From Apricaphanius iberus (Eukaryota; Chordata; Actinopteri; Cyprinodontiformes; Aphaniidae): a DNA stretch of 64,000 bases. A program made the translations under genes and the position numbers. Below the pieces are notes generated by a model. The model had not been told where the DNA came from and ran no database searches. It saw only the letters and a program-made list of their open reading frames with translations. Positions 13,201 to 59,620 of this stretch are shown piece after piece (within the stretch, counting starts at the first letter, position 1; every line of letters begins with the position of its first letter). The DNA is taken from NCBI GenBank assembly GCA_028564705.1, contig JAPXFQ010001396.1:62001-126000 (forward strand), read 5' to 3'.

Positions 13201-13328
13201 GCAGATCTTTCAGCTATCAGGCTCCCCTCCTATGGAACCGGCTCCCAGGGTTGGTTCGTGAAGCAGACAATTTGTCTATCTTTAAAACTAGGCTAAAAAC
13301 TTTCCTCTTTGACAAAGCTTACAGTTAG
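10276..13328 (+). CDS. LINE endonuclease-reverse transcriptase (ORF2), 5'-truncated but open
   Basis: About 1017 codons stay open. The N-terminal part is an APE-type endonuclease (roughly residues 60-290) with [26 protein letters not shown] and SDHFLITF. The reverse transcriptase (roughly 560-830) shows [38 protein letters not shown] and the catalytic YADDTQLYL. The C-terminal region has the LDYCN and LHWLPV blocks typical of this LINE group. The frame opens at a GTG just after an in-frame TAG, with no ATG close by, so the true start was lost by 5' truncation at 10276. The absence of stops across 3 kb suggests a recent insertion or recent source. Confidence 0.93.
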
Positions 13329-15355: not shown

Positions 15356-17285
15356 CAAGAACAACACGCAACAACACCACAATTGAGCAGGGGGAGAGAG
15401 GCTGGGGGTCTTTCCACACACCTGTTCGTTGGACCATCAGGGGTTGGAGCCCGGGTATCAGGCCGTCGGGTCGGGACCTAGGCTGGTGGCCTACTCTTGC
15501 CGGGATGGGGGCCTTGGCGGTCTGCTTGTCCCCGTCCTGGTGGGCAAGGGGTCCGTCTCCCGGGTGCAGGGGCAGGGTGCTCTATCGGGGCGTCTGTCCC
15601 TGGGCCTGGAAGTATAGAGTATGTATGGGGTGTATGAATGAGTGTACAGCGTCCTTTTTTGGTGTGTCCTGTATAGGTAAGAATGTGTGCGCATGAGAGG
15701 GAGGGTACGTATGAGTGTCTCTGTCTGTCTATGTCTACTTGTCAGGTTGGGTGTTTGGCTGCCCTCTGGCCTGGTCCCTCTTCTTCCCCTCCGACACTCC
15801 CCATCGGTGATGGATGCTCCTGCCCGCTGGTCGATGATGGCTCTCGATGTCTGGGGCCGGGGGTCCCGGTTGCGACCCGGCTCGGTCCTGGTGCATGCCT
15901 GGCTGGTCCTGGGTGGGCCGGTGTGTCGGGCGGCCGCTGTTTCGGGCCGACATCCTCCTTGGATTGACTGGGGCACCTCTTATGGGGGTGCTGGGGTTGT
16001 AAAGTAGGTTGGTGCCGTCCGGTGGGTCGGTGGGGACCGTGCCCGGCGCCCAAGCTCCTGCCAGTTCCATGAGTTCTACTGCCTGGTCGGTTCATCTGGG
16101 GGGGCTGTCCGGCATTGGCTGGGCCCCAGATCTTGGCGCTCTGAGGGGGCGGGATCTGGACCCGGGAGCTGGTAGATCTGGATGTCCAGGTGCTGGCTGG
16201 GCGTGGCCTGGGGAGGGCGTGCATCCGCTGTGGCTTATACTGTGGCTCCCTGGCTTGTGGGTGTGTGGGGGGGGCGGGTTGTTGGCGGTGGGTATTCGTC
16301 CGGGGTGGCGGTGGCGTGTAATATCCGTCGGTCGACTGTGGGCGCCTCCTGCCCAGCGGCGGGGGACCCCTCTCGGCGGGTCCCTGGTCGGGGCCCTGCT
16401 GGGGGGCGGGGTGCCCCTGATCCCTGTGGCCTTCGGGTCCTGTTCCGGGCCCGCCCTGGCGTAGCCGGTTTCTGGCGGAGCCCGTGGGCTCGTCCCTGCG
16501 ATTTCTCGGGGCCCCAGCATTGCGGCTGCTTGGTGTTCCCCTGGGGCTTCCATCTGTTCCTCTCTTGGTGGGTGATCGGCCCTGCGCTGGTCCGCCTGCA
16601 GCTCCTGCGCTCTGTGGGACTCTGGATGCATGCGTCTCCTGCCTCCTTCATGTCTGTGTCGATTCCTGTAGGACGGATTGACGGTTCCTTACACCAGCTA
16701 TCAATCACTTGCATGGGGAAACCTTATTCAGACCTGAATGCTCGCACACACATAGGTGTGGGGACATTGGTGTGGACGGACATATCTTGACCTGAGGTTA
16801 TCGTCATTAGTTAGCTTTTACCAGGAGCTTACCAGAAATATTAGTATTGTGTTCATTAATCCATGCTTGTGTGTACTTAATGTGTAATTCTTAATTTTTA
16901 TTACTGGATCTGAACTATTGGTGTGGTTCTGTTCAGTTCGTTGTTTTTGTTTGTTTTGTTTTACCGCTTCTCTGCCATCCGGCAGAGGCGGAGGACTGGG
17001 ATGTTTTCTTGTGTTCTTTGTTTGCCTCCCTGTCTTGTGTCGTCGGTTCGCGCCTCTGCTGGTGCGGTTTCTTCATCTTCCTTTCTTCCTTATAGAAATT
17101 GAACCCTCAATAATCACTAATAAAGATTTTTTAATACATATACATCAGCAAAGCTGTAATACTCTGCTTGGGAAAGTAAATCTGTTGGGCTTGTACTTGG
17201 TACTCAGACACCATTTCGGTGTGGCAAACTGCTAGACAGGACACGTAAAAAAATTAATAAATAAATAAACGCAATTTTATTGTTC
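15356..17285 (+). mobile_element. GC-rich poly(A) retroposon, copy 1 (5'-truncated)
   Basis: This ~1.93 kb block is strikingly GC-rich against its AT-rich surroundings. It is flanked by the 8-bp repeat TTTTAAAG (15348-15355 and 17286-17293). It begins with AGAACAACACGCAACAACAC and ends with CTGCTAGACAGGACACGT plus an A-rich tail. Copy 2 at 35818-38071 is homologous along its whole length but extends about 150 bp further at the 5' end, so copy 1 is 5'-truncated. Long frames on both strands reflect base composition, and none shows a known domain. TSD, tail and truncation indicate target-primed reverse transcription by another element's machinery. I do not recognise the family. Confidence 0.82.
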
Positions 17286-22536: not shown

Positions 22537-24809
22537 CAGGGGTGCACACAGTTTTTCAGCCTGAGAGCTACTTATGACATGACCGAATCAAAATGATCTA
22601 CCACTTACTAAAAATGCAAAGCACATTATTTATAAATATATTAAGAATTATTTTTATATGTACAGTATATGCTGGTGTACCTTGCATACTGCATCAACCA
22701 ATATTGCACAATACAACTCAGTAATTTTTTTTGTCATTACCTTACTCTGATGACTTGCACTGAATGGAATCAGCCAGGGATGCATAGTCCGGACAGTAGC
22801 TGCTGATAGCCAGTCTCAAGCAGACTTCCAGATGCTCATCAGTCATGGTGGAACGGTACTTGGACTTTATGATCTTCATGTGGGAAAAGGCTGACTCACA
22901 TAAATAATTGGAGCCAAATAATGCAGTCAAGAAGGTAGCACATTTCCTGATGTTGGGGTACTTGTCCTCTGTGAGTAAGTTCCAGAATTGTCCATGAGCT
23001 CTGGCCTTCAGCTGAATGTCGGATTGAAGAATCTCATCCTCAACTCCAGAAGAGTTTAGGTGAAACTGTGTTGCAACTTTTGATGCCAGTGAAACAACCT
23101 CAACATCTTCCTGGAAAGGGTAGCACATGAATGTAGCGACTGGCTCAAGTAAAGCAAAGTCTTGAAAGCGTCTGTCGAACTCTGACAGACAATTGTCAAT
23201 TTGCTTTATTTAGCGTGCACCGGCACATGACTGCTCTTGTGTCTCCAGCTCTGCCGCGAGGTTCTGGAAGTTTGCAAAATCATGGCGGTGAAGCTTTGAG
23301 GAGAGATGTTGCATTTTTCGTTTGAAAGCATTAACTGAGTTGATCATATCGATCACAGTTTTGTCCTTTCCTTGCAGCTCTAGATTAAGGTCATTCAACA
23401 TGTTGGTCAGATCGGTTAAGAATACCAAGTCCAGCAGCTACTGATGGTCATTTAGTTGGCTATAATCTGCATGTATACTTTCACGGAAAAACTCCTTAAT
23501 CTCCAGCAACAGCTCTCGAAATCTTTGCAGGAATTTCCCCCAACTTAGCCATCTCACGTCGGTGTGCAACAACAACTCAGAGTGGTCGCACTCAGCATTC
23601 TCCACATGTGCACGGACCAGCCGTCTTTGTAGAGATCTGGCCCGAATAGAACAGGAGATCTTTGTTGCTACATCCATTATCTCTTTCATGTTGAGCATTT
23701 TTGCACATAATGCCTGTTGGTGTAAAATACAGTGGTAATTAAGGAAGTCCGGAAAATCATTGTCCTCCCTGCACTTCGCGATAAATCCATTCGAGCAGCC
23801 AACCATGGCGGGTGCGCCATCCGTGGTGATGTACACCAATTTGCAGACTGGGAGCTGGGTTTTCTCTATAAAGTTTTTGAAAGACTGAAATATGTCCTCT
23901 CCTCATGTGTGTTCTTTCATGGGCAGTACTGTTAACAGCTCCTCTTTTGCAGTCATGTCCGTAAATACCATCCGAATAAAAATTCACAATTTTGCTGTGT
24001 CACTCACGTCTGAAGACTCGTCCAACTTAAGTGAGAAACACTCACAATCTGCGATGTCCTCCCAAAGTTGCTGGGTCAAATCCTCAGCCATGGCTTCACT
24101 GTGCCGTGTTACTGTACTTCTTGATAGCTGGAGAGCTTTGATCGAAGCTAGTATTTCTGGTTTGTTTTTAAAGTCTCTGAACGACGAGTCGGCTGCTTCA
24201 ACAAATGCTTATTTTACCATCTCTCCATCTTGGAAGGATTTCTTGTTTTTAACAATGAAGTGACTCACCCGGAACGATGCTTCAGTGGCTGTCCATGCCT
24301 TTGAAGTTAGCTGTGTGAAAAATAACTGCTGTCCGGACAGCTGGGATTTTAGTTCATTCACCTTTCTCCTTCTCAGCTCGCTTTTCGGAGGGAACTTGGT
24401 GTCATAGTTTTTATAAACAGTCTGAAAATGGCGCTCCACATTTCCCTTCTTCGGTAAAGCAATTGTAGACTGACAGATGAGGCAAACCCACTTCAAAAAT
24501 GACATTGTGAAAAAGAAGTCCTCCTCCCACTCCGTATGGTAGTGGTAGATCTTCGGCTTTTTACTTGGTCCATCTTTTCCACTCATTTTTATCCCCTTTC
24601 TTACTCGCTAGCTTGCTAGAGTTTTGCAGTACTTAGCGCAGTTGTATGCGCATGCGGAGTGACGGGTGTGTCAGAGAATGGTCAGATCAGATGTTATTGC
24701 GAGGACAGATGATAGGCTGGCGCCAACTTTTTTTTCAATGCCATGCGATCTACCCACAATGCCTTTGCGATCAACCAGTCGATCGCGATCGACATAATGG
24801 CCACCCCTG
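22537..24809 (-). mobile_element. hAT transposon, Charlie-like
   Basis: The element starts CAGGGGTGCACAC and ends GGCCACCCCTG, which are the short inverted CAGGGGTG-type termini of Charlie-like hAT elements. A perfect 8-bp duplication GTTTAGAC flanks it (22529-22536 and 24810-24817). The interior encodes one transposase on the minus strand with an N-terminal BED-type zinc finger and the C-terminal hAT dimerisation region, disabled by a few stops. Confidence 0.93.
22742..24586 (-). pseudogene. hAT transposase with BED zinc finger, disabled by stop codons
   Basis: Translation begins at 24586 with a lysine-rich leader and a BED-type finger (WVCLICQSTIALPKKGNVERH). It continues through SRSTVTRHSEAMAEDL-like, DESSDVSDTAKL and VYITTDGAPAMVGC (a catalytic-core block) to LFGSNYLCESAFSHMKIIKS near the C-terminus, the hAT dimerisation signature. 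In-frame stops occur right after DGEMVK, after DTAKL, after MKEHT and near 23430 and 23210. Most look like single-base nonsense changes in an otherwise continuous frame, so loss of function is fairly recent. It resembles the transposase lineage related to the host genes GTF2IRD2 and ZBED. Confidence 0.88.
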
Positions 24810-27640: not shown

Positions 27641-27701
27641 CCTTGGCAGGATTTGATCCCAATTCACAGCACCATAATTACAACATTTAATATATATTTT
27701 C

Positions 27702-28733
27702 TTGTCAGTGGATGATGCAGTCAACATGGCTCTCCACTACATCCTGCACCACCTTGACTCTGCAGGTACCTACGCTCGGGTCCTGTTTGTGGACTTCAGC
27801 CCTGCATTTAACACCATCGTCCCAGAGCTCCTCCACCAAAAACTGTCCCAGCTCACCGTGCCTCCCTCCACCTGTCAGTGGATTACCAGTTTCCTGACTG
27901 ACAGGAGGCAGCAGGTGAAACTGGGTAAGTTCACATCCAGCTCCCGTTCCCTCAGCATCGGCGCCCCCCAGGGATATGTTCTCTCCCCACTGCTCTTCTC
28001 CCTTTACACCACTGATTGCACGTCAAGAGACCCTTCTGTGAAACTCCTGAAGTTTGCAGATGACACCACCGTCATTGGACTCATCCGTGACGGCGACGAG
28101 TCTGCATACAGAAGGGAGGTGGAACATCTGGTCCTCTGGTGCAGTCAGAACCACCTGGAGCTAAACCCGCTCAAAACTGTGGAGATGACAGTGGACTTCA
28201 GGAAGAGACCCCCTGCAAAATCTCCTCCCATAATCACCAACAGTTCAGTCCCCACAGTAGAGTTTTTCAGGTTCCTAGGATCCACCATCACACGGGACCT
28301 GAAGTGGACCTCCCACATTGACTCTATAAGGAAGAAGGCCCAGCAAAGGCTGTACTTTCTGCGTCAGCTCAGAAAGTTCAACCTGCCTCAGGAACTGCTG
28401 ACCATCTTCTACACAGCAATAGTCCAGTCTGTCCTGACCTCATCCATCTCTGTCTGGTTCGGATCCGCCACCAGGCAAGACAGGGACAGACTGCAGAGAA
28501 CAGTCAGGTCCTCAGAGAGGATCATAGGTACTGATCTTCCTTCCATTCAGGACCTTTTCCGGGCCAGGGTCAGGAAGCGGGCCAGAAAAATCACCACTGA
28601 CCCCTCACACCCTGGCTACAATCTGTCTAGGCTCCTCCCCTCAGGCCGGCGTTACAGAGCGCTGTACGCCAAAACCACCCGACACAAGAACAGTTTCTTC
28701 CCCCAGGCTGTCGCTCTGATGAACTCTGAGTAG
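27702..28733 (+). pseudogene. LINE reverse transcriptase, C-terminal half, open frame
   Basis: The frame of about 343 codons starts inside the RT domain (VDDAVNMALHYILHHLDSAG, FVDFSPAFNTI). It continues through the GAPQGYVLSPLLFSLYT block and the catalytic FADDTTVIGLI to the C-terminal LLPSGRRYRALYAKTTRHKN and FFPQAVALMNSE. It stays open to a natural-looking stop at 28731-28733. No ATG starts the block, because the copy is truncated at its 5' end. The palm motif is FADD rather than YADD, as usual in this LINE group. Confidence 0.88.
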
Positions 28734-29302
28734 TGTTGTATTAAATAATTATCATAAGTAATTCAATGTATGTTCAAGCAGAGACAAAATGGAGCCAATT
28801 TCCAGTTTAACATTTATTTTGAACAGATTAACAAATTGCAGTTTTACAGAGGAATTTTGCCCTCGTCAGTTCCTCTGTGGTCCAGATTTAAAGAAATCTG
28901 AACAATTAACTGATCTTCATTTCACAGCTTTATAGACAACCGGGCCTCTGGGCGTTTATAATCTCTCCAATCAGAACATTTTCATACAGTGTCTTCGCTC
29001 TTATTTGCTGTCAGAGAATCCTGGAGTCAGAAGATCAGTCGTCTCTGTTCTGGGTCAAAGGTTCATTATAAAGATTTATGGTTAAATGGCTATCTGCTTC
29101 TCTAAAGACTTTTCTCCCAGTTTCTTATCTAAACATCCTGCTTTTACAGCTTGCAATAACTTTTAGCCAAAAGTTTTACGACTTAAAAGCTTACCTGCAT
29201 AAACAATAGTGTCAGACCCATTTTTTACAACCATGCAAACTATATAAACCGTCTTTTACCTTCTGAATGATAAAAGTTTAAACCTTATGCAGAATTACCA
29301 CA
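28734..29302 (-). repeat. 3' LTR of the non-coding element
   Basis: This is a 569-bp LTR with exactly the same length as its partner at 33545-34113. I count about six substitutions between them and no indels, so they are about 99% identical. LTRs are identical at insertion, so the element is young. Confidence 0.93.
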
Positions 29303-33544: not shown

Positions 33545-34113
33545 TGTTGAATTAAATAATTATCATAAGTAATTCAATGTATGTTCAAGCAGAGACAAAA
33601 TGGAGCCAATTTCCAGTTTAACATTTATTTTGAACAGATTAACAAATTGCAGTTTTACAGAGGAATTTTGCCCCCGTCAGTTCCTCTGTGGTCCAGACTT
33701 AAAGAAATCTGAACAATTAACTGATCTTCATTTCACAGCTTTATAGACAACCGGGCCTCTGGGCGTTTATAATCTCTCCAATCAGAACATTTTCATACAG
33801 TGTCTTCGCTCTTATTTGCTGTCAGAGAATCCTGGAGTCAAAAGATCAGTCGTCTCTGTTCTGGGTCAAAGGTTCATTATAAAGATTTATGGTTAAATGG
33901 CTATCTGCTTCTCTAAAAACTTTTCTCCCAGTTTCTTATCTAAACATCCTACTTTTACAGCTTGCAATAACTTTTAGCCAAAAGTTTTACGACTTAAAAG
34001 CTTACCTGCATAAACAATAGTGTCAGACCCATTTTTTACAACCATGCAAACTATATAAACCGTCTTTTACCTTCTGAATGATAAAAGTTTAAACCTTATG
34101 CAGAATTACCACA
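33545..34113 (-). repeat. 5' LTR of the non-coding element
   Basis: This is the 569-bp partner of 28734-29302. As the 5' LTR on the minus strand it should hold the promoter. I could not confidently place a TATA box. The TGTGG start is followed outside by the GTAG target copy at 34114-34117. Confidence 0.93.
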
Positions 34114-35847: not shown

Positions 35848-38071
35848 GTGTCCTGTCTAGCAGTATGCAACTCAGAATTGGTGTCTGAGTACCAAGTACA
35901 AGCCCAACAGTTTTACTTTCCCAAGCAGAGTATTACAGCTTCGCTGTAGTACGCCACTTGATGTATATGTATGAAAAATCTTTATTAGTGATTACTGTGG
36001 GTTCAATTTCCTGACGTCATGGACATTAAACTGAGACAAGAAGGGAGAAAGGAAGAAGGTGAAGAAAAGAAACCGGACCAGCAGAGGCGCGAACCGACGA
36101 CACAAGACAGGGAGGCAAACAAAGAACACAAGAAAACATCCCAGTCCTCCACCTCTGCCGGACGGCAGAGAAACAGTAATACAAAACAAAAACAACAAAC
36201 TGTACAGTGGACCAGTCCCAGCCTGGTCAGCGGCGAGCATGAACTGATGAAGCCTCTTGGATAAGAGGTGAAACGTCTTCCAAGACAAATTACCAAGTCC
36301 AGTTGCGTTTGATTGAAATCTCCTTGAGATAACCATGACCTGGATGAATGAGAATATTCACAGGCTTGTACAGAACCAACCCAATAGTTCGGATCTAGTA
36401 GAATAAACTAAGAATTACACATTCACTACACACAAGCATTGATTAATGAACATAATACAAATGTTTCTGGTAAGCTCCTGTGAACAACTAACTAATGATG
36501 ATAACCTCAGCTTAAGATATGTCCGTCCTCACCAATGTCCCCACACCTATGTGTGTGCGAGCATGCAGGTCTGAATAAGGTTTCACCATGCAAGTGATTG
36601 ATAGCTGGTGTAAGGAACCGTCAATCCGTCCTACAGGAATCGACACAGACATGGAGGAGGCAAGAGATGTATGCATCCAGGGTCCCACAGAGTACAGAGG
36701 CCACAGGCGGACCAGCGCAGGAACACCCACCAGCCGCAATGCTGGGGCCCGAGAGATCGCAGTGACGAGCCCACGGGCTCCGCCGGTAACCGGCTACGCC
36801 AGGGCGGGCCCGGATCAGGAACCGGAGGCCACGGGGACCAGGGGCACCCCGCCCCCCAGCGGGGCCCCAACCAGGGACCAGCCGACAAGGGCCCCCCGCC
36901 GCCGCAGGCAAGGGGGATCCGCAGCCAACCGACGGACAACACACGCCGCCGCCACCCCGGACCAATACCCACCGCCAACAATCCGGCCCGCCCCCACACA
37001 CCCACACGCCAGGGAGCCACAGCAAGAGCCACAGCGGATGTACGCCCTCCCCAGGCCGTGCCCAGCCGGCACTTGGACATCCAGATCTTCCAGCTCCCGG
37101 GTCCAGATCCCGCCCCACGTAGGGCGCCAGGATCAGGGGCCCAGCCAATGCCGGACAGCCCCACCAGGTGAACAGACCAGCCAGCAGAAGTCCTGGAACC
37201 GGCAGGAGGCCTGGGCGCCAGGCACGGTCCCCACCGATCCACCGGACGGCACCAACCTGTTCTACAACCCCGGCACCCCCAGAAGAGGTGCCCCAGTCAA
37301 TCCAAGGAGGACGTCGGCCCGAAACAGCGGCCGCCTGACACACCGGACCACCCAGGACCCGCCCGACATGCACCAGGACCGAGCCGGGCCGCAACCGGAA
37401 CCCCCGGCCCCAGGCATCGGGAGCCATCATCAACCAGCGGGCAGGAGCAACCATCACCAACGGGGAGTGACGGGGAGGGAAGAAGATGCATCAGGCCAGA
37501 GAGCAGCCAAACACCCAACCTGACAGGTAGACATAGACAGACAGAGACACTCATACGTACCCTCCCTCTCATGCGTACACATTCTTACAAATACAGGACA
37601 TACAAAAAAAGGACGCTATACACTCATTCATACCCCCCATACGTACACTATACTCCATACTCCCAGGCCCAGGGACAGACGCCCCAATAGAGAACCCTGC
37701 CCCTGCACCCAGGAGACAGACCCCTTTGCCCACCAGGACGGGGACAAGCAGACCGCCAAGGCCCCCACACCGGCAAGAGCAGCCCACCAGCCCAGGACCC
37801 CGACCAGACGGCGTGATGTTCTATCCGGGCTCCGACCCCTGATGGTCCAACGAACAGGGGTGTGGAAAGACCCCCCAGCCTCTCTCCCCCAGCTCAATGT
37901 GGTGTTGTTGCGTGTTGTTCTAATGTGCACTTAAAACAGAGGGGGGGGGACATGGGAATACTGCCGGGTACCCCCATCTCCCCCCCCGGGCCCTCAGTGT
38001 CTAGATGCGTTTAACCAGTGGGTGCCGGCACCACAGGCGAGGCCCCCACAACGGGCCCCTATAGGGGTCTC
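35818..38071 (-). mobile_element. GC-rich poly(A) retroposon, copy 2 (longer)
   Basis: The 2254-bp insertion lies in Gypsy pol and is flanked by the 12-bp duplication TGACCAGGACTT (35806-35817 and 38072-38083). It runs on the minus strand: a T-run of about 27 at the left edge is its poly(A) tail, preceded by the CTGCTAGACAGGACACGTTA 3' end shared with copy 1. Its 5' end at 38071 extends about 150 bp beyond copy 1. The centre is very GC-rich with long frames on both strands that differ between copies, which argues against a real protein. A 160-bp foreign piece sits inside it at 36207-36366. Confidence 0.88.
36207..36366 (+). mobile_element. 160-bp insertion with hammerhead-like core
   Basis: Copy 1 lacks this segment and has an empty site (GTTCTGTTCAGTTCG). 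In copy 2 the segment is bounded by the 6-bp repeat TGTACA (36201-36206 and 36367-36372). On the plus strand it contains CTGATGA (36244-36250), a hairpin-forming CCTCTTGGATAAGAGG, then GAAAC (36270-36274), the arrangement of the hammerhead ribozyme core. The motif CATGACCTGGATGAATGAGA is part of a dispersed fish repeat. Penelope-like elements are known to carry hammerheads. Ribozyme activity and Penelope origin are inference. Confidence 0.6.
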
Positions 38072-40967: not shown

Positions 40968-41308
40968 TGTAATGTTCTGCACTATGTGTATCGGTTATAA
41001 CATTCCTCAGTTGTGTTCCATAATTCAGTCTTCTTAGTTACTGGTGCTGCTTATTAGTTCCCTTGTTCTGTAATAATGGAGAATAGTAGGGGAGGCCCCG
41101 TGGGGGGAGGAGAGAGAGGGAGAGTTCTTCTTCTGCAGTTTTTTTTGTTGTTGTTGTGTGATGGCTGTGCGAGCGAGTGAGCGGGAGGAGCTCAATGTTC
41201 GGCGAGGTTGCGGCCAACAGCAGCCGTTCATTTATTTTCTTCATTAAAAAAGGGACCCAACCCAAAGTGACTGTCTCCGACTGTCATTGTGTCTGAGAGG
41301 ACGTTACA
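40968..41308 (+). repeat. Gypsy 5' LTR
   Basis: The LTR begins TGTAATGTTCTGC and ends GAGGACGTTACA, so the ends are short inverted TGTAA and TTACA. Its length is 341 bp. It is followed after one base by a primer site. No second copy was found, so the boundaries rest on these signals. Confidence 0.72.
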
Positions 41309-41309
41309 G

Positions 41310-41322
41310 TGGTGTCAGAAGT
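41310..41322 (+). promoter_or_regulatory. Gypsy primer binding site
   Basis: TGGTGTCAGAAGT lies one base after the LTR. It is close to the tRNA-Leu complement (TGGTGTCAGGAGT) and is a common primer site in vertebrate Gypsy elements. Confidence 0.72.
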
Positions 41323-41401
41323 TAACGACGGCGGACTTTGCTCGGCTACCGGGTGGACTACCTAGCGGCTTCCAGCTAACCCTGCTATCACCGAGAGCAG
41401 C

Positions 41402-41565
41402 ATGACCGCACAGCAGAACAACGCGGGCGCTCGGCCGAAGTTCAAGGGAGAGGTGGATTGCAATGACTATGCTGGTACACCGAGACATGAGGTGGACTTT
41501 TTCCGCGATGTGGAGCACGTAGCTCGCCTGAGACGGACGGCCAGGAAGCTAGCTGCTGATGCCGG
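41402..41565 (+). pseudogene. Gypsy gag, N-terminal fragment
   Basis: An ATG at 41402 opens a frame (MTAQQNNAGARPKFKGEVDC) that stays open up to the Ginger1 boundary at 41565. The apparent continuation past that point is Ginger1 terminal sequence. The gag product would form retrotransposon particles. This frame and the gag frame right of Ginger1 differ by one base when one target copy is removed, so a small indel has occurred or the real gag start is the ATG at 49184. Confidence 0.6.
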
Positions 41566-41951
41566 TGTTACGTCGAGCCGCGTTTCCCCGTCAGATACGG
41601 TTTCCCCTGCGTCTGCGCACCGCTCCGCGGCTCGCACGCGGCAAATAGCGCGCGTGCTTGTTCAGCGCTCGTAACAGCGAACCGTGCTTGAGCCTCAAGA
41701 CAACTACAGACACAGTGAAAGCTTACCTGCGTGAAGTTTGCCCCCCACCCTTACGCAAAACTCAGTGAAAATAGCCACAGTCATTTGTGCTGTCTTAGTG
41801 CTGGTTTCTGCAGAAAAAAAATAAATCATTTCTGCTGTTTTAGTTTTTAAAATATACCCTAATTTTGGTCAATCTAAGTTCACAGCAGAAATTTCCATTT
41901 GTGCTGTTTTGGTTTTTCAGATATAACAACTTTATAATGATGCGATGATGT

Positions 41952-41985
<34 letters not shown>
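41566..41985 (+). repeat. Ginger1 left inverted terminus
   Basis: The arm contains, inward from the end, TGTTACGTCGAGC, the GTCAGATACGGTTTCCCC motif, CGCGCGTGCTTGTTCAGCGC, and then AT-rich sequence ending at a CA/TA microsatellite. Its partner is 48700-49139. Confidence 0.92.
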
Positions 41986-41988
41986 AAA

Positions 41989-42170
41989 AAACAGGGGAAA
42001 CGGTATCTGATGGCCAAGAAACACCCGTCAGATACCGTTCCCCCTCATTTAAACAGGGGAAACGGTATCTGATGGCCAAGAAACACCCGTCAGATACCGT
42101 TCCCCCTCATTTAAACAGGGGAAACGGTATCTGATGGCCAAAAAACACCCGTCAGATACCGTTCCCCCTC
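41989..42170. repeat. Three 62-bp hairpin tandem repeats
   Basis: Three units start at 41989, 42051 and 42113. Each contains GGGGAAACGGTATCTGATGG and, inverted, CCCGTCAGATACCGTTCCCC, so each can fold into a hairpin. The same core (GTCAGATAC-GTT-CCCC) occurs once in each transposon terminus. That makes eight copies within one element and suggests protein-binding sites, perhaps for the transposase. Confidence 0.93.
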
Positions 42171-43753
42171 TGTTATACATACATACACATATTTTACTGT
42201 TATCTGTATAGTTACAGACTAAGTATACAAGAAATTCCCGTAACACATTTAAATGTCTTATATCAGTGTTGAAATACGTTGTGTGTGTATTTATCTGATT
42301 AATATTTATGAAAAGACCATGGTTAAAATTGTGCTTTGAGCAAGCAGTAGTATCTACATCTCCAAGCATACCAGTTTGGGACCGCAGCAAACGTTGAGTT
42401 TACATTCCATTTTAGCTGTCATGTCTCCTGTTTTGGGCAGAATACAATAGTGGTTTAAGAGATATAGAAGAAATCCAAAATATTACTTTGTGATAGCTGT
42501 TTCTGTTTTAATATCATTATAAGGGCATTATTAAATGTTGATTTAACTTCACTGTTCCATTTCAGCTGGTGCCATGTAAGGTTTCAAGTTCATTGGGAGC
42601 TGAACTTCATTCAGCTCAAAGTTGTGTGTGAAGTTGTGAGAGCTCATGGAAATGTAAACTTATTACCATTATTTTAGTATCATTATTTTTTTATAAGACA
42701 ACAATGCATATAGAATATTATGTAACCTTACTATTATCATGAAAGCTGGTATTTACATTTAAGATACAAAAAGAAACATGTTTTACCAAAAATCTTTATT
42801 TTGGCACCAGATCTGATCCTGATATAAACAGTTGAATGGTCCCCCATACAAACGTTTTTTGTTTAATTATAAGTTTAGATGTAACATATCAGAATCAGAA
42901 CTGCTTTTATTGTCAAGAACAATAAAGGTCAGTTCAAAGCCTGGGTAACTTGTCTTGGTGTCAGGTGCAATAATAAATGGTACCAAAATAGTTAAAAGAC
43001 ATACTATAAATACACAAAAATACTTTACAAAATAATACAATAAATAATGATAAGAATATTGGGACAGATTTTTATCAAACAATAGCACTTCATACATTTA
43101 ACTTAATTATCAACTCTTTCTGTGTTTTTAAATGAAATCCTGCAAACAGGTTATTTGGTTATTGTGGTTGACATGTATTTTTTAAAATGAACTTAACCTG
43201 GTGGGCGGAGTCAAACGTTTGATCCCGCCCACTTCGAGCCCGACTCCCCACTGATATCGTTTTAGTCTCATCTGTCATTTTAAATGTGAACTAAATGTAA
43301 ACATGCTATTTAAATACACACATGTAAAAGCCATTTAGGGGCAGGTATTTTATATGTTGAAAATGAGTCATATCAATTTACTATGATCAATAAACGTTGT
43401 TTTGACATACATTTCACATCAATTGGACGTCTTATTTCCTGACATCAAATCAATGTTGATTTAATGTCAATGACATTGACCGTTAGATGTAGGGACCATA
43501 AAAACATGTCATATTGATACTTTTGTTGGGGCTCTTTAAAACCAGAAGGACCTAATTGCAAAATCTAATAAAATTATTCATTCATCTCATACATGGTGGA
43601 CAAAATCTTGAGTACGTGTTGATGTCAAATTGACGTCAAGGTGCAGATTAGGAGTTGAGTATGCGCAAGCACCTCATTAATTCACACCGTGGCCCATGAC
43701 CCCTTACATAGACGTAGATTTTGAGGTATAGATAGGCCTATAGCTAGAAAGAA
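42171..43753. other. Ginger1 5' interior, no exon seen
   Basis: AT-rich sequence between the hairpin array and the first coding exon, probably promoter and 5' UTR or intron. A fragment around 42888-42960 (ATCAGAATCAGAACTGCTTT) resembles a reversed LINE tail. No ORF with a known domain was found. Confidence 0.5.
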
Positions 43754-46700
43754 ATGGACCCGTCAACATTTAGAAATATTTTTCAATATCTCTCCTTGGG
43801 AAGCTACCCCGAGGGCTCTTCTAAGAGTCAAAAATATTCTATAAGGCGGCGGGCAGCGGACTTCGCAGTTGATGGTGAGAATATTTTTCTTGGGTTAAAT
43901 TTACTGTTGGTCGAAGGCCTCTAGTCTTTCTCTTACCTGATTATTTAGCGATAAGTTATTTCGGGTATGCTATGTAGAATTGTGTCGTACCTACTGCATA
44001 GCCGTATTTCCCTTTTTTTTTAATGGACTACTTGGGACTTATCAGCAACACTATTTAGGTACAGTGATGTAGCTACCTTATTGAATAATTACTTCAAGGT
44101 ATTAAGCCCGTCACACTGAACAGTTACAATTGAACAGAAATTAATGGCATTCAAAATCTGTCTGCCCTATGCGGGTTAGAAAATTATGACCCAATATGAC
44201 ATTTATACAGTATCAGTTCTGTCTTTCTGTCTACAGCGACTGCATCCAAGTAAATATCGTTTGCATATTTCAGGACGGTTAGAATAATTCCTCTGTTTAT
44301 GTTCTCTGCACCACACTAACCACATCAGGACCTCACATTCACATGCATGCGTCATACTGGAGTTTATAGCTCTTATTTATTTATTTATTTTTCGCTGATG
44401 AAGCGATGTTTAGCGTTTGCTTGATTTTAATTTTTATCATCAACTTGTGATATTTTGACAGATGAAGTATTGTATTACTGCAAGGGAAGCTGTCAGTCAA
44501 AGCGTAAGGTTGTGACTACAAAAGAGGAAGCCCAACAAATCTTTAAGGAGTTTCAAGGCAGTGCTTTTGGTGCCCACTGTGGCATAGTTAAAACCAGAAA
44601 TGCTATAAGCAGAAGGTTTTACTGGCCAGGCATGTCCAAAGACATCGATAAGTGGGTAGGTATTTCTTATAAATAAAGGCTCACAAACAGAAACCATTGT
44701 GTCTGGTACATCTTTATAGTACAATATAAAAAAAACATAACATAATATTGCACTTATTTCATTTATGTCCAAAAAGGATACTTTTTCACAATTCAAGTTC
44801 TTTGCAAAATGTATGTAGTGTATCCATGTTCATTTATGTATTCTTTTAGCTTAAAACAGCTTTGTGACATTTTAATGAAATAAAATATGCTTCTTTAGGT
44901 CAGTCAGTGCGTGGAATGTCAGCAATGTGCACTGACAATTAAGCAAGAGACAAAGCCTATCCCAATTGAAGTAAGTGACACACATTTCAAAACACCACAT
45001 GAAAGATATTTTATTGTCCCTCGTCAAAAGTGCTACAGTATTCTCATTTTTATTTTCCTTTTTCAGGTGAGTCAACCATTTGAACTTGTTGGGATGGACC
45101 TTATTGGAAAGGTTGTTAAAACAGAGGATGGGAATGAATATATAGCAGTCATGGTTGACTATTTTACAAAATGGTCCGAAGCCTATCCTCTGCCATCCAA
45201 AACAGCAGCAGATGTTTCACAGTGTATTGTGAAGTTCTTTTATCGCTTTGGGGCCCCAAAGCGAATCCTGACAGACAAGGGGAAAGAATTTGTGAATGAG
45301 GTGTGTTGCTAAATATTTTTGAGTGTTATGTACTGGAGTGTGATGCTATATGAAACTGTTAGTAATTTAGTGATCAAAAAATCTGTATAAGCATTTACTT
45401 GTTATTGACCCACAGTTGAACAAGGAGCTTTGCAAAATGCTGGACATTGCACGCAGCCTTTGTGCTCCCTATCACCCTCAGACCAATGGGCTGGTAGAAA
45501 AGCTCAATGGGACAATTCAACGGTAATCACAATTTCAGAATTTACATGTACTTATTCAAAGGTTTGTTTTTGTTTATTCAACTTCAGTGCAGGCTTTTCA
45601 ACATTCTGTCTGAACATTATGCCAGTACAAACTTTGTCCTCTTTGACAATGTGGTTATAATCAACCTGTGTGGTGCGAGTGACATACAGATGTCATCATT
45701 ATGTACAGAAACATATTGGCTTCCCATAGGTTCGTCTCAAGCAAGTGTTGATGACAGGATTTTCTGCGCTGTTGCCAATTTTTATCTCATCATGGTGTGA
45801 TCTTGTGCTCCCCTAGAGTTAATGGCCAGCTGCAGTGGAATGCCTTTTATGTGCCCCTGTCCCTTTTTGTGATAATTACAGAAGTCGTTAGTACTTTCTT
45901 TAGGTTGAATACTCCAAGTACTGGCTTAGTAAATTTGTCCACATTGGCATAGTGGCAGGCATTTTCTTTCTGTTAATTTATCAAGAAATTGATAAAATCT
46001 TGTTTTTCAGAGCACTCTGCAAACTAGTTAGTGAGCGACCAACCACTTGGGACACTTACTTGGATCCTGTGATGTTTGGAATAAGAACAAAAAAACAGTA
46101 CACTACTAAGTTTTCACCATTCTTCCTCCTCTTTGGAAGAGAGGCTCGTCTGCCATGTGAGGTTCCAGAGAACATCCTGGTGAGACATGATTTCATCTCT
46201 CTTTATTACATTCTATATGAAGAGCCCTGTAGATGTTAAGACGTCATTTTAGATCATGTTTATTCATGAGTCTTGATCAAAATATTTAGAAATTTCAAAT
46301 GAACATTGCAGTATCTCTGGTGGTATTTCATCATAATGTAAAACATTACTTTACAAATGAACAAGAAAGCTGAGATTATAGTTAAAATTTTGGTTAAAAA
46401 AAATTCCGACAATTCAAACTTCATGATCAAAGTTCATCCACCTGTCTATAATATTTACTTGTGTCCTAAAAAAAGAGTATATGTTATTCTAATTTATTGT
46501 AGTTATGGATTACCACCATGTTTAACTTTTTAAAAATATTTTTTGTGCCACTTATGTTTTCACTTCAGAAAAGAAAAATATTTGAGAGCTGACACCTTCT
46601 TAAGGTATCCGAAATATGCATTTTTTTTGTTTCTTTTACTCCAGATTGACAGCAAAATTGAGGACACTCTGGGGGAGGAGTCTGTGTTGGAATCAATACA

Positions 46701-48138
46701 GAAAAGGGATGCAATTTATAAATTAGTCCATGAAAACATAGCAAAAGCTCATAAAAAATACAAGACCCCATCTCAAAAATCACAAACTTTCAAGGTTGGA
46801 GACAAAGTTCTACGGCTCAACATAAGAAGCCAACAGCGTAAGGGTGGAAAATTGGAAAAAAATTGGACCGGACCATACACCATAGTTAACCTTGCAAAGA
46901 AAAGTGCAGATCTGCAATCCGAAAAGGCTTTTTTCCCAAAAGTCAACACAGATCAGCTTCGGATTTTCATTGAACAACAAAACATTATCCCTCAGAACAT
47001 TCTAAAAACTGAAAAACCTGCTTCCATCCCTCCACCTGCTGAGGAGCCAGCATCCATCCCTCCACCTGCTGAGGAGCCAGCATCCATCCCTCCACCTGCT
47101 GAGGAGCCAGCATCCATCCCTCCACCTGCTGAGGAGCAGCATCCATATACTCCACCTGCGAGGGAGCCAGCATCCATCCCTCCCACCCGCATGAGGAGCC
47201 GCAGACCTCCTGCTACATCCCTCACCTGTTTGAGGAGCCAGCATCCATCCCTCCCGCCTGCTGATGAGCCATCATCCATCCCCTCCACCTGCTGAGGAGG
47301 CCAGCATCCATACCTCCACCACTGCTGAGGAGCCACACCATCCCCTCCTACCTGCTGAAGGACCAGCATCATCCCTCCACCTGCTGAGGAGTCAAGCATC
47401 CAGCCCTCCCCCCTGCCTGAGGAGCCAGCATCCATGACCTCCACCTGCTGAGGAGCCAGCATCCATCCCTCCACCTGCTGAGGAGCCAGCATCCATCCCT
47501 CCACCTGCTGAGGAGCCAGCATCCATCCCTCCACCTGCTGAGGAGCCAGCATCCATACCTCCACCTGCTGAGGAGCCAGCATCCATCCCTCCACCTGCTG
47601 AGGAGCCAGCATCCATCCCTCCACCTGCTGAGGAGCCAGCATCCATCCCTCCACCTGCTGAGGAGCCAGCATCCATCCCTCCACCTGTTGAGGAGCCAGC
47701 ATCCATCCCTCCACCTGCTGAGGAGCCAGCATCCATCCCTCACCTGCTGAGAGCCAGCATCCATCCCCCATCCCCTGCTGAGGAGCCAGCATCCATCCCT
47801 TCCACCTGCTGAGGAGCCCGCATCCATCCCTCCACCTTCTGAGGAGCCAGCATCATCCCTCCACCTGCTGAGGAGCCGAGCATCCATCCCTCCACCTGCT
47901 GAGAAGCCAGCATCCATCCCTCCACCTGCTGAGGAGCCAGCATCCATCCCTCCACCTGTTGAGGAGCCAGCATCCATCCCTCCACCTGCTGAGGAGCCAG
48001 CATCCATCCCTCCACCTGCTGAAGAGCCAGCATCCATACCTCCACCTGCTGAAGACCATTCATCCACCCTTCAATGTGTTGAGACTGCAAGACATTCTGC
48101 TATGCCACCATTTTCAGGCTCTACAAAAGTAGAAAAGT
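43754..48138 (+). CDS. Ginger1 transposase (Gypsy-like integrase), exons 1-7
   Basis: Seven exons can be placed with GT-AG borders and matching phases: 43754-43874, 44462-44655, 44899-44970, 45067-45300, 45416-45522, 46011-46179 and 46645-48138. Exon 1 opens MDPSTFRNIFQYLSLGSYPE and leads through SIRRRAADF to VLYYC (the YPYY-type region). Exons 2-3 hold the zinc-binding region (RRFYWPGM, CVECQQC; the usual first His reads Gln in KEFQGS). Exons 4-5 hold the catalytic core: Asp in VGMDLIGK, Asp in LTDKGKEF, Glu in NGLVEKLN, with D-35-E spacing. Exon 7 has the GPY motif (NWTGPYTIV). The core is intact; a minisatellite in exon 7 breaks the frame with a stop near 47295. It acts in the nucleus to cut and join transposon ends. 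Confidence 0.88.
47030..48060 (+). repeat. 30-bp coding minisatellite in the transposase exon
   Basis: About 1 kb of tandem 30-bp units encodes PASIPPPAEE in the transposase frame, lying between the GPY region and the Ulp1 part. The first four units are in frame. From about 47130 on, indels shift the frame, and exon 7 as a whole (1494 bp) has a length incompatible with its phase. Long minus-strand frames across it are by-products of the repeat. Confidence 0.93.
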
Positions 48139-48234
48139 GTATGTTTTGGAAACTTTTCTTTCTAAATATAATGAACATATGTACTGAAAGATTTTCACTT
48201 CCAAAAAATCGAATTCTTTCCTGTTTTATTTTAG

Positions 48235-48697
48235 ATATCCGGAAAGCCTGGGATGGCACGACATCGGCTATTATTCTTTCTAAAATTGGGCCTTACACAA
48301 TTTTCTATGAAGACATTTTACGTACAGCACCAGGAAGGGAACTCGAGAGCGAGGTAAACCGCAGTGTTTCTGTCAACAATTTAGAAATGTTGCTGCACCT
48401 GGATGGGCATTACAAAAATATGATAGTACAAGTTAACAAGCAAAGATCCATCTTTTCAGATCATCAATGCATACATGTTTCATTTGGAGAGAAAGCACAA
48501 CACATCTTCAGAAGACAAAGTGCTGTACATAGATTCATTTGGCATGTCAGCTGTGTGGCAAATGAAATTTCCCCGCTTCAAGGTTCGTTGTCTTCACTGT
48601 GACATTTAACCAAAAAAGTATTCATGATGCTGACATCACTGTCTTTCAATTCTTTAGTGGGATCCAACAGACTACAGTACTATATATGGCATTGTTA

Positions 48698-48705
<8 letters not shown>
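48235..48705 (+). pseudogene. Ulp1-type protease region of Ginger1, truncated
   Basis: Three further exons fit in phase: 48235-48353 (IRKAWDGTTSAIILSKIGPY, PGRELESE), 48460-48582 (IINAYMFHLERKHN, VLYIDSFGMSAVWQMKFPRF) and 48658 to about 48705 (WDPTDYSTIYGIVND). Together they look like the N-terminal half of a C48/Ulp1 SUMO-type protease, as known for Ginger1. The half that should carry the catalytic His-Asp-Cys is missing: the reading runs into an AT microsatellite and then the right terminus. Splice sites are GT-AG, and the last donor (CAAG|GTTCGT) is weak. The protease cannot be active. Confidence 0.78.
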
Positions 48706-48753
<48 letters not shown>

Positions 48754-49139
48754 ACATCATCGCATCATTATAAAGTTGTTATATCTGAAAAACCAAAACA
48801 GCACAAATGGAAATTTCTGCTGTGAACTTAGATTGACCAAAATTAGGGTATATTTTAAAAACTAAAACGGCAGAAATGATTTATTTTTTTTCTGCAGAAA
48901 CCAGCACTAAGACAGCACAAATGACTGTGGCTATTTTCACTTAGTTTTGCGTAAGGGTGGGGGGCAAACTTCACGAAGGTAAGCTTTCACTGTGTCTGTA
49001 GTTGTCTTGAGGCTCAAGCACGGTTCGCTGTTACGAGCGCTGAAAAAGCACGCGCGCTATTTGCCGCGTGCGAGCCGCGGAGCGGTGCGCAGACGCAGGG
49101 GAAACCGTATCTGACGGGGAAACGCGGCTCGACGTAACA
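48700..49139 (-). repeat. Ginger1 right inverted terminus
   Basis: This is the inverted partner of 41566-41985. It starts inside at an AT/GT microsatellite (about 48703-48752) and ends CTCGACGTAACA at 49139. It includes the CCGTATCTGACGGGGAAA copy of the repeated motif. Confidence 0.92.
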
Positions 49140-49143
49140 CCTG

Positions 49144-49990
49144 ATTCGGTGTGGGGTTCGGCGGAGAGTGGCGCCGGCGCGAATATGCCCGCCAAGAAGG
49201 ACGTGAAGCCGACTGTACACAGAAATGGCGGCCCCCTATGTGACCAGCCGCAGATGAAAACGCCAAAATATTCCGGTAAGACTGACTGGGAGGCCTTCTA
49301 TGCGCAATTTGAACTGTTAGCGAGGGCTGCTGGCTGGTCCGAAGACATCAAAGCACTTCAGCTGTCTTTGTGCCTCACGGATGATGCCGCTCGTTGCCTG
49401 CTGTTACTTAGCCCAGAAGAACGGGGTGACTATGAAGCTTTAGCTGGGGCCTTGCAGCGGCGTTTCGGACAATGCAATCAGCCTGCTGTTTTACGCTCTG
49501 AACTGGCTAATAGACAGAGACTGAAAGGGGAGCCGCTCCGTGTTCTTGCCGCAGAGATTGAAACTCTGACGAGGAGGGCCTATTTCCACATGCCAGCTGG
49601 GGTGCAGAGTGAGCTGGCGAGAGACCAATTCATCCGGGCTTTATCACCGAGAGAACTGCGGGTGTAGACGCAGCTGGCTCAGCCTCGCACGCTGCAGAAC
49701 GCTTTGGAGATAGCACTAGAAAGAGAACTGGTTAGAGCCACATCGGACTCTGATACCATTGCCTGTAACCCTGTTGTGAGGGCCGCGGGTTGTGAGACCC
49801 AAAGACCGGAGAGACCAGCGTGGGTCAGCGAGCTGACTGAGATGATCCGAGCGGTGTCACTGCAGCCCCCGCAGAGTGGACGGCCTCGCCGCGGTGATCG
49901 TGCCTGCTGGGTGTGCGGCCAAAGCGACCACATCAGCGTGCGGTGCCCAAAGCGTGCTGACCGTCAGGGAAACGGCCCAGGGTCAGCGTA
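49144..49990 (+). pseudogene. Gypsy gag, main part with zinc knuckle
   Basis: A frame including MPAKKDVKPTVHRNGG (ATG at 49184) reads through a capsid-like region (YSGKTDWEAFYAQFELLARA, LCLTDDAARCLLLLS, LAGALQRRFG) to a TAG at 49665. It continues in the same frame with the CCHC knuckle CWVCGQSDHISVRC (C-x2-C-x4-H-x4-C) and stops at 49988-49990. A single in-frame stop therefore breaks an otherwise intact gag. It may begin here if the left fragment is not part of the same frame. Confidence 0.85.
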
Positions 49991-56219: not shown

Positions 56220-59200
56220 ATCGCTCCTTATAATAATAATAATAATAATACATTTATTTTATATAGCGCCTTTCAAAACACCCAAGGACACTGCACAAAT
56301 GAACAATTCAAAACATTGTCAACAATAATAATAGTAATAATAAAAATAAAGTAATAAAAGATAATAATCAAACAAAGCAGAACAACATTGATAAGGTGAG
56401 AGTGACTAGATGTCATAGGACCGTCTGAACAGGAGAGTTTTCAGTGTGGATTTAAAAAGTGGAAGAGAGTCGATGGTACGGAGATCAGGGGGGAGAGAGT
56501 TCCAGAGGCGGGGGGCGGAGCGGCAGAATGCTCGATGCCCCATAGTGACAAGGCGGGCAGGGGGGACAGAAAGATGGAGGGAAGAGGAGGAGTGAGCGAA
56601 CAGGAGTGGCGATGTGCAGGAGATCAGATATGTATGGGGGGGCCAGATTGTGAAGTGCTTTGAACGTGATGAGGAGTATTTTGAAGTTAATTCTTTGTTT
56701 AACTGGAAGCCAATGGAGTTGTTGTAGAATGGGGGTGATGTGGTGAGAAGAGGGGATCTGGGTGATGATGCGTGCTGCAGAGTTTTGGAGGAGTTGGAGT
56801 TTCTGGAGGGATTTGTTGGGAAGGCCAAAAAGTAGGGAGTTACAGTAGTCAATGCGGGAGGTAACAAGGCTGTGGACCAGGATGGCGGTGGTGTGGGGGG
56901 TGCGAGACGGGCGAAGACGAGAGATGTTGCGCAGATTAAAGAATGCAGACCGGGTGATGCTATTTATGTGGGAGTGAAAAGAGAGTGTGCTATCGAGGAC
57001 AACACCCAGACTCTTAACCTGGGGGGAGGGAAGGACAGGCGAGTTGTTGACGGAAATGGAAAAACTGTCAGATTTGGAGAGAGTGTGGGGCGTGCCGACC
57101 AGGAGGACTTCTGTTTTGGAACTGTTCAATTTGAGGAAGTTGGAAGAAAACCAAGAATGAATTTCTTGGAGACAGAGGGTAAGGGAGGTTGGGGGGAGTG
57201 AAGAAGACGGTTGGGTAGAAAGGTAGAGCTGGGTGTCGTCCGCGTAGCAGTGAAAGTGGATGTTGTGTTTGCGAAAAATGTAACCAATTGGAAGAATGTA
57301 AGAATGTATATAATGAAAAGGAGGGGCCCCAGGACAGAGCCCTGGGGCACACCAGCAGAAACGGGGAAAGAATTAGATTTAAAAGATTTAAGTTGAACGG
57401 ATTGTGTGCGGCCAGATAGATATGAGTTGAACCAAGCGAGGGGGGTGTGAGTGATGCCAATAGATGAAAGTCTGAAGAGGAGGGTGTGGTGGGAAATAGT
57501 GTCGAATGCTGCTGTGAGGTCAAGAAGGACGAGAATGGACAGTAAACCAGAATCTGAAGCTATGAGGAGGTCGTTGGAGATTTTGAGCAGTGCTGTTTCA
57601 GTGCTGTGGAGGGGACGGAACCCGGATTGAAACTGCTCATAGATGTTGTTTGTGATGAGATGCTCATGGAGTTGAGAGGCAACAGACTTTTCGAGAACTT
57701 TGGAAATAAAAGGTAAATTTGAGATGGGGCGTAGGTTGCTGAAATCGTTGGGGTCAAAGCCAGATTTTTTTAGGACGGGTGTGACAGAAGCGGTTTTGAG
57801 TGCAGGAGGGACAATTCCAGAAATTAGAGAAGAATGAATGATGTTGGTGATGATTGGAGCGAGGGAAGAGAGGCAGGTTTTGACTAGAGCTGTAGGGAGT
57901 GGATCAAATCGACAGGTGGATGATTTGGATTTTTGGACAAGTTTGGAAATGGCTTGGACGGAGGGGAGGATAAAGTTTGAGAATGTAGTAGTGGGGGGTG
58001 GTAAGGAAACAGTTGAGTCCATACCAGAGAGAGAAGCTCCCCATGAGGTCAGGTGTTGATGGATGTCAGTGATTTTGGAAAGAAAAAAGGACATGAGTGA
58101 GTTGCAGAAGTCAGTGGAATGCAAGTAGTGGGGAAGAGAATCTGGGGTTTTAGTAATAGTGGTGAGGAGAGAGAAGAGAGTTTTTGAGTTGTGCCGATTG
58201 GAATTAATTAGATCAGAATAGTAAGCAGATTTGGCTGAGGAGAGGCTTTCCTTATACAACATTACATGATTATTATACATTTCTCTATGTACAGTGAGTC
58301 CAGTTTTGTTGTATAGCCGTTCCAGTTGTCGTCCTTGGGATTTGAGCTGACGGAGGTCAGGGGTGAACCAGGGTGAAGAGCGGGCGAAGGAGACAGATCT
58401 GGTTTTCAGTGGAGCATGGGAATTCAGAAGACTGTGGAGATTGTTGTTGTATTGGGAAACCAGTTCGTCGGGTGAGCAATTGGCATTTGTTATGGGAAAA
58501 TAAGTAATGTCAGAAGAAAAAGTGTCAATGTTAATATTCTTAATATTACGGAATGAGATGGTGCGAGGGATGATGATTTTGGACAGGGGGAGGTCGATAT
58601 TAAAGGAAATGAGCATGTGATCAGAGTAAGGGAGTGTAAGAGATTTACAATTAGTGGGAGTGATACCAGAACAGCAGACTAAATCCAAAATATGACCTTT
58701 ACAGTGGGTCGGGAAATTAATAGTTTGTTGCAAACCAAAACTTTCGAGACAGGATAAAAAATCTTTGGAGAGAGTATTGTTGTTATCGTCCACATGAATA
58801 TTAAAATCACCCAGGACAATTGCATTGTGTGAAAGAGACGAGAGAAGAGCAAGGAGGTGAGAAAAGTCACTAATAAAGTCCTTGTTGTGTTTTGGAGGAC
58901 GATAGACGGTAGCAACAACTGTAGGAGATGGTCCAGGCAGCAGGGAGGCAGAGTATTCAAAGGAGGAGAACACGGGAGCAGCAGGTACAGGGATGACTTT
59001 CCAACTCTCGCGGTGTAACATCGCGAGACCTCCGCCCCGGCGACAAGCACGGGGCATGGCGACGTAAACAAACCCCGGTGCAGCGGACTGGTTGAGAGCG
59101 GTAAAGTCATTTGGCTGCTGCCAAGTTTCAGTCAGGCACAAGCAGTCGAGCTTACGGTCCACAAGGAGATCTCTTATTAGATCCCCTTTGCTGGTGAGAG

Positions 59201-59620
59201 AGCGGATGTTAAGGAGACCGAAGCTGACAGTGGTGGCTTTACTCCTGGCTGCAGCCGACAATGGCAGGCTAACCGGAACAGTGATGTTGACATCCCGGAC
59301 AGATTTTCGGGAACGGCGGCGGCGGCGTTTGGTATACCAGATCAATTTTATGGACCGAGACTCGTTCCACTGGAACTTATTGCGTGGTCCTCGGTGAATA
59401 TATCTCTGACGAGGCTCATACCTTATGTCAGTGGGGATGTCAGGCCCGGATGGTGGCTGCAGAGCGCAGATGTGGCGCCGAAGTTTTAGGAGTTCAGCTG
59501 AAGAGTACTGGAGGAGAGCATCAGCTTGTAAGTGGACAATGGACACAACTAGCCAGCCGACAGTTAACCAGCGGATTGTTTGGAGGATCCACATCGTTTT
59601 TCAAAGAAGGAAAACCAGGA
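56220..59620 (-). mobile_element. L2-like LINE, nearly full coding length
   Basis: The minus-strand LINE has its 3' tail as ATT repeats at 56222-56250, preceded by an end motif containing GCGCTATATAAAATAAATG. Coding sequence extends from 59594 to 56406. No matching TSD could be found by eye. It lies within the hAT element in intron 2 and therefore arrived later. Confidence 0.82.
56406..59594 (-). pseudogene. LINE endonuclease-reverse transcriptase with two frameshifts
   Basis: An ATG at 59594 opens 822 codons. A basic linker is followed by the APE endonuclease ([57 protein letters not shown]). The RT follows ([55 protein letters not shown]). The frame is then lost at a tandem 8-bp duplication (AGAATGTA twice, 57292-57307 on the plus strand). 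Catalytic and later codons continue in another frame to about 56600 ([20 protein letters not shown]), and a further shift leads to the C-terminal [14 protein letters not shown] block. Otherwise it is well preserved, so inactivation is recent. Confidence 0.9.

Follow-up and report, generated by a model that had tools for sequence, protein, structure and literature searches.

The locus described here raises the question of why a transposon with two nearly identical arms is bordered by two unlike copies of its target site. The element occupies positions 41566 to 49139 of a stretch of 64,000 nucleotides from Apricaphanius iberus (contig JAPXFQ010001396.1 of assembly GCA_028564705.1); this whole stretch is called the window, and coordinates refer to it. 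The left target-site copy reads CCGG (41562..41565) and the right one CCTG (49140..49143; CAGG outward), a single mismatch that, judged from the sequences compared below, does not look like random decay. The element is a Ginger1-type DNA transposon inserted into CCGG. Overall, we consider it likely that it is an internally deleted copy of a young Ginger1 family whose ends are joined or folded in transposition.

The termini of the element are TGTTACG and CGTAACA, in agreement with the TGTNR ends (here TGTTA) of Ginger1 elements. Its inverted arms (41564-41985 and 48720-49141) are identical at 416 of 422 positions in a gapless alignment, which takes in two chance-matching flank bases per side; the terminal inverted repeats (TIRs) proper are 420 bp long. 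This match is more than chance, because a search with the TIR in the same assembly (1.195 Gb) gave at least 43 matches, 40 of them long and the other three being 34-bp fragments of these TIRs (scores were computed for 40 of 99 candidates, making the counts lower bounds). Twenty-five other loci were fetched, 13 of them as pairs. The original prediction, made from the letters of the window, had proposed a Ginger1 DNA transposon with near-identical long arms, and both parts hold: the alignment bears out the arms, and the Integrase_H2C2 and rve domains found by Pfam, a D-35-E triad, a GPY motif, the TGTTA ends and the CCGG target bear out the class. It had also proposed looking for other CCGG-flanked copies in the same genome; these exist, as the tallies below illustrate.

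The repeat into which the element was inserted is matched at 11 further places in the genome, at one of them over 47 bp, and the empty site is CCGG in all 11, so it is the right target copy that has changed. The same change recurs in the family. Exact 21-base ends preceded by CNGG gave 31 matches (CCGG 16, CAGG 14, CTGG 1), whereas the 16 control matches of exact ends preceded by CCNG are all CCGG; seen from the element, therefore, only one side of the 4-mer is subject to the change. The 40 exact ends in the fetched loci, which overlap with these 31 matches, read CCGG (16), CAGG (14), CCGT (3), ACGG (2), GGGG (2) and GCGG, CTGG and AAGG (one each), with GG adjoining the element in 37 of them. 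Outside this tally are the inexact termini (L031 left, one end each of L038, L039 and L052, and the ends L055 and L057 of the family copy C331) and the damaged ends of L034, L036 and L046; five of the inexact or damaged termini read CCGG. Sixteen copies are readable on both sides, with L034 and L036 (damaged left end) set aside. Six of these pairs are CAGG/CCGG (the window, L032, L037, L040, L042, and L047) and one, L033, is CAGG/CAGG. The outer arms of 12 copies differ at 25 of 4,070 aligned bases (about 0.6%); therefore, the family looks young, and 14 identical flank changes by chance mutation are implausible.

In the altered flanks, the bases look like a brief inverted repetition of the end of the element, (GTAA)CA-GG-TGTTACG. 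An A is found at position −5 in 11 of 14 CAGG ends versus 3 of 16 CCGG ends (Fisher, 0.0027; 0.0022 with the five inexact CCGG termini added, 0.015-0.021 without L069-L072), and AA at −6 and −5 in 7 of 14 versus 1 of 16 (0.012). Empty sites for other copies were available through chance homology among the fetched loci. In L042 the empty site TTTACCGG corresponds to the filled site TTAACAGG, and in L053 the empty site CAACCCGG to CAAACAGG; L037 has CAACCCGG, then 11 extra bases (TGTGTAACAGG), then TGTTACG, while L070, with no known empty site, reads CCGG-TACAGG followed by TGTTACG. In the window copy, L042 and L053, each of the five bases changed at −3 to −7 is the one found in the inverted end (probability 0.004 for random bases).

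A retroviral integrase normally integrates only, and a cut-and-paste element must free the second strand too. The identity of Ginger1 transposases to Gypsy integrases reaches 40%, and the excision mechanism of Ginger1 is given as unknown in the portions of Bao, Kapitonov and Jurka (2010; PMC2836005) considered here. On balance, the flanks point to a transposition intermediate in which the end CGTAACA would be joined via GG to TGTTACG. In the favoured form, there would be a hairpin on each transposon end, the 3′-OH of one strand attacking the other strand two nucleotides into the flank; in an alternative form, a bridge of the same sequence would connect two element ends. As the TIR tips are identical, hairpin and bridge are indistinguishable by sequence. 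Off-centre opening would leave a 5′ overhang ending in (G)(T)AACAGG or shorter, and its ligation into the 4-nt gap at a CCGG target would turn one target copy into CAGG, sometimes with more converted or added bases. The flanks suggest hairpin opening because the change affects a single side, almost always yields A, tends to extend along the inverted end (2-6 bases) and at times adds bases. The P nucleotides of V(D)J recombination offer a comparison for bases left by the opening of hairpins.

Several observations weigh against this interpretation. Plain perfect duplications are found in six of the 16 pairs (L035, L038, L039, L041, L049, and C331), and three pairs (L031, L043, and L051) have mismatches that the model does not cover, as do the single ends of L048 and L050. 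Considered one at a time, positions −6, −7, and −8 show no significant difference between the two classes of end (CAGG and CCGG). Among the 40 ends, four (L069-L072) belong to loci in which no more than some 21-48 bp of TIR are present. The paralogues that stand in for empty sites are diverged: outside the tract, L042 departs from both of its paralogues at −9 and L053 from both of its own at −10, −16, and −18, which makes the single changes in L042 and L053 weak evidence; the two window paralogues of L034 differ from each other, and both are without CCGG. Finally, the evidence stems from the sequences of one family in one genome.

A joined-ends intermediate similar to that of IS3, either a circle or a bridge with CGTAACA-GG-TGTTACG and no hairpin, is conceivable but not probable. 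Elements of the IS3 type transpose via a circle route, and imprecise cutting at the joint would leave bases of the other end in the flank. The flank of L037, CCGG-TGT-GTAACA-GG-TGTTACG, resembles a nearly deleted tandem joined by GG, and the tract of L034 matches an intact end although the end of L034 itself is damaged. The IS3 and IS481 transposases are, moreover, related to these integrases according to the portions of Bao et al. (2010; PMC2836005) at hand. Yet the tracts are 2 to 6 bases long, as hairpin opening would give, and among the fetched loci GTAACA-(0 to 20 bases)-TGTTAC occurs at one genomic place only (L037/L024).

It is unlikely that the 5′ bases of a donor flank travelled with the element as a flap, CAGG being inherited from a parent copy. 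Such carry-over agrees with the GG next to the end, which varies less (it is present at 37 of 40 ends) than the two bases further out, but with two bases carried it predicts CCTG as the empty site of the window and is ruled out there by CCGG at all 11 places. In addition, CAGG stands at opposite ends of the same-core copies L040 and L042, and we reason that inheritance alone can neither create nor keep 14 CAGG among 31 ends.

We give equally little credence to the idea that the Ginger1 gene is a passenger between TIRs of a NOF/Foldback (MULE) family. Foldback elements duplicate 9 bp of their target. At the C1325 locus (L071/L075, C1325:313700-316366), 48 terminal bases are identical to the window TIR, the flank is CAGG, and the encoded protein is NOF-FB-like (Foldback/MULE-like; 67% to a ‘NOF-FB’ protein of Clarias), which leaves room for another transposase sharing these termini. 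Long, internally repetitive arms are also typical of Foldback elements, as far as the portions of PMC3573991 used here go. On the other hand, it is Ginger1 elements that are characterised by TGT ends together with 4-bp CCGG/CCGT duplications (PMC2836005, same portions), and between these TIRs both C331 and the window copy carry an integrase and Ulp1 pieces, joined in C331 by a PHD exon. The weakest alternative, ordinary post-insertion CpG mutation of CCGG in what would be just another decayed Ginger1 copy, is highly improbable: CCGG does hold a CpG, a mutation hot spot, and the window mismatch is a single base, but such mutation predicts CTGG or CCAG, seen once and never against 14 CAGG, the CNGG and CCNG searches place the changes on the −3 side and never at −2 and so rule out CpG decay as the main cause, the −5 base tends to match the inverted end, and the arms differ by so few bases.

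Returning to the preferred reading, a young family with joined or folded ends, the long arms proved to be a family trait: the 420-bp TIRs run into arrays of 62-bp palindromic repeats. One-off end copying as the origin of the long arms of the window copy is ruled out, since other copies have them as well. The left TIR (41566..41985, plus strand) starts with TGTTACG, ends in (CA)n(TA)n and contains a subterminal motif, CCGTCAGATACSGTTYCCCCT, at 41588-41608. Three 62-bp repeats follow (41989..42179, plus strand); the repeat folds as a hairpin and has the subterminal motif in both orientations. After the TIR, at least one 62-bp unit is present in 25 of the 26 sequences counted; there are three units in the window, 43 in C331 and from 0 (L053) to 28 (L033) elsewhere. 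The chances that the 62-bp repeats are extra transposase-binding sites seem about even to us.

Non-autonomous cores were compared for 16 copies with defined bounds, eight other loci being left out. All 16 match the right subterminal region and none matches the left one, and in L031, L033, L034, L035, L037, and L047 the right-end core is inverted on both sides. We offer only tentatively, and as rather doubtful, the broader idea that the Ginger1 transposase, a eukaryotic enzyme resembling retroviral integrase, makes hairpin-capped ends with a 2-nt GG loop, that the target copies receive P nucleotides like those of V(D)J recombination when these hairpins are opened imprecisely and that replicated hairpins give rise to longer TIRs and inverted right-end dimers; for the dimers in particular, an origin from replication of a hairpin-capped end is speculation. 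Two candidates for cargo genes were rejected: the open reading frame (ORF) of L031 has a reverse transcriptase and was read as a nested long interspersed nuclear element (LINE), and those of C331 were read by eye as hAT-like. The left end of L049, L070, and L072 keep only the first 21-22 or so TIR bases before diverging, which hints that the tip may be a minimal unit.

The gene of the window copy lies on the plus strand, behind a left subterminal region (42180..43753) in which none of the three scanned ORFs within or overlapping it has a Pfam match. Exon 1 (43754..43874) is predicted to hold the start codon and a candidate YPYY region, exons 1 and 2 together showing a Y-P..Y..YY arrangement. 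The predicted exon 2 (44462..44655) encodes the H2C2 zinc-binding domain; it is followed by exon 3 (44899..44970), exon 4 (45067..45300) with the rve catalytic core and its first and second Asp, exon 5 (45416..45522) with the catalytic Glu, and exon 6 (46011..46179). The predicted exon 7 (46645..48138) contains the GPY domain and then a frame-breaking 30-bp variable number tandem repeat (VNTR; 47010-48060). Spliced at introns that are all predicted as GT-AG, exons 1-6 and the start of exon 7 give an open integrase of 420 amino acids, in line with the exon structure claimed in the original prediction. Its Pfam matches are Integrase_H2C2 (6e-18) and rve (6e-17), while D,D-35-E (35 residues between D and E) and the GPY motif (WTGPYTIV) were read off the spliced protein. 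The catalytic domain is homologous to those of the PFV and Ty3 integrases (3oyk and 7q5b; E-values 6e-26 and 2e-22). Ten ORFs of the element were scanned; two Pfam matches were obtained, both to integrase domains, and none to a reverse transcriptase or RNase H.

The predicted exons 8 (48235..48353) and 9 (48460..48582; IINAYM...) begin an Ulp1-like domain, and a truncated exon 10 (48658..48699) ends it, with a deletion junction to (TA)n just 3′ of it. Copy C331 matches the ten exon pieces at 97-100%, with no gap in the parts that align (the local alignment leaves out three bases of exon 2). There, exon 7 is open, whereas the window copy has an expanded, out-of-frame 30-bp coding repeat in it; the Ulp1 domain runs on with NHHW, LLLDSLGES and DSSSCG, and the PHD exon follows. 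At the junction, the window has GTTAATGA followed directly by TGTATA versus GTTAATGACAACCATCACTGG in C331, that is, the sequence switches into the (TA)n of the right TIR after GTTAATGA. About 3.5 kb are thus missing at the right end, including the Ulp1 catalytic His/Asp/Cys, the PHD exon and the right 62-bp array, and the right TIR (48720..49139, minus strand) directly adjoins the junction. The window copy is internally deleted and probably non-autonomous. An Ulp1-type region after the integrase had been foreseen, and its N-terminal part is indeed present (48235-48699), but this piece has no Pfam match and the HHW...D...C half seen in fish relatives and C331 is absent. With these losses and the out-of-frame VNTR exon, the description of the element as a well-preserved reference copy had to be abandoned.

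Marin is said to have treated GIN transposons in 2010. The features of the present family are shared with Ginger1 elements to a large extent: a Gypsy-like integrase with H2C2, DDE and GPY, introns, TGTNR ends, and a 4-bp CCGG/CCGT duplication, recovered here from the empty sites and the perfectly duplicated pairs and, in the window, with its one mismatch; a candidate Ulp1/PHD C-terminus is seen in C331 (Ulp1 triad pieces and PHD exon). According to the table of Bao et al. (2010; PMC2836005, consulted in part), Ginger1 elements are 2.6-7 kb long with TIRs of 40-270 bp, 0-4 introns and CCGG/CCGT duplications. Unlike these, the present family has 420-bp TIRs with 62-bp arrays, longer, as predicted originally, than a table range that is no strict criterion, nine predicted introns in the remaining gene, a 16.6-kb copy with a nested insertion, and CAGG-altered target copies. 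Galileo (P superfamily) and Foldback elements likewise have long TIRs that are repetitive internally, variable tandem repeats in which secondary binding sites have been proposed, and subterminal DNA recruited into the arms (PMC3573991, in the portions compared). The likeness is structural only, as their transposase superfamily and target duplication differ; the gene in the window encodes an integrase by Pfam, not a P-element or MULE-type transposase. With piggyBac, the family shares a specific 4-bp target; in the portions of PMC7351741 compared, the 3′-OH attacks the flank and yields a transposon-end hairpin with a loop of four flank nucleotides, while the loop proposed here would have two (GG), opening would be imprecise, and the transposase is of another family. 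PFV and Ty3 are retro-elements rather than DNA elements with TIRs, despite their homologous catalytic domains. Parts of further papers were compared as well (PMC3424704, PMC12863088, PMC10871703, PMC5753468, PMC10045372), and no account of the features described here was recognised among the works listed by our literature searches.

The closest listed proteins to the integrase are two from the goby Knipowitschia caucasica (P0001 and P0002); identity is 91% in one case, with 77% of the query covered, and 90% in the other, with 72% covered, and the PHD exon of C331 has its counterpart at the end of P0002. After these, the top of the list contains mostly fish proteins at about 45-60%, and several of them also have Ulp1 and PHD domains. 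Integrase, Ulp1 and PHD stand in the same order in P0010 (Melanotaenia), P0012 (Oreochromis) and P0029 (Danio), which are 49-60% identical; the window copy differs from them in lacking the Ulp1 catalytic half and PHD. A FastTree phylogeny of 38 sequences, with references drawn from the search matches, groups the window integrase with P0002 (support 0.999) and then with Labeo P0003 and Danio P0029 (0.859). A search of the genome with exons 4-6, in which all 29 candidates were scored, gave 50 matches: C331 at 98%, C1530 (88%) and C1605 (92%) over part of the query, and the remainder at 66-84%, which look like other families. By these comparisons, the element may represent a new Ginger1 family or subfamily. 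A second Ginger1-like family, apparently recent and 66% identical to the window gene, is present at 11 loci of equal match score (C1926, C1544, C1497, C1445, C1189, C997, C791, C771, C472, C382, and C45).

The window also holds other repeats around the element. The insertion interrupts a gag-like ORF (41300-41561 and 49144-49667) of an apparent Gypsy-type repeat, the one with 11 other matched places; these flanking ORFs have no Pfam match, and ‘Gypsy gag-like’ is a reading by eye. Direct repeats of 569 bp (28734-29302 and 33545-34113), 98.9% identical, 4.8 kb apart and with a CA end, are possibly the long terminal repeats of a young element, and two 1.6-kb copies that are 87% identical (15358-16935 and 36367-37921) lie in inverted orientation to each other. 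A reverse transcriptase is encoded by LINE-like ORFs at 10242-13325 (plus strand), 27678-28730 (plus) and 57129-59600 (minus), two of which also have an endonuclease. Remnants at 4542-5006 and 22745-23209 (both minus) have a weak match, below the Pfam cut-off, to a Tc1/mariner-type helix-turn-helix and a hAT dimerisation match.

For the biology of the family, two points follow. Its TIRs, repetitive internally as in Galileo, belong to an element whose transposase is of the integrase type. The inverted-end tracts at real insertions, in turn, lead to a concrete prediction, namely that CGTAACA-GG-TGTTACG would arise in transposition as a hairpin or a bridge, and this could be tested in vitro.

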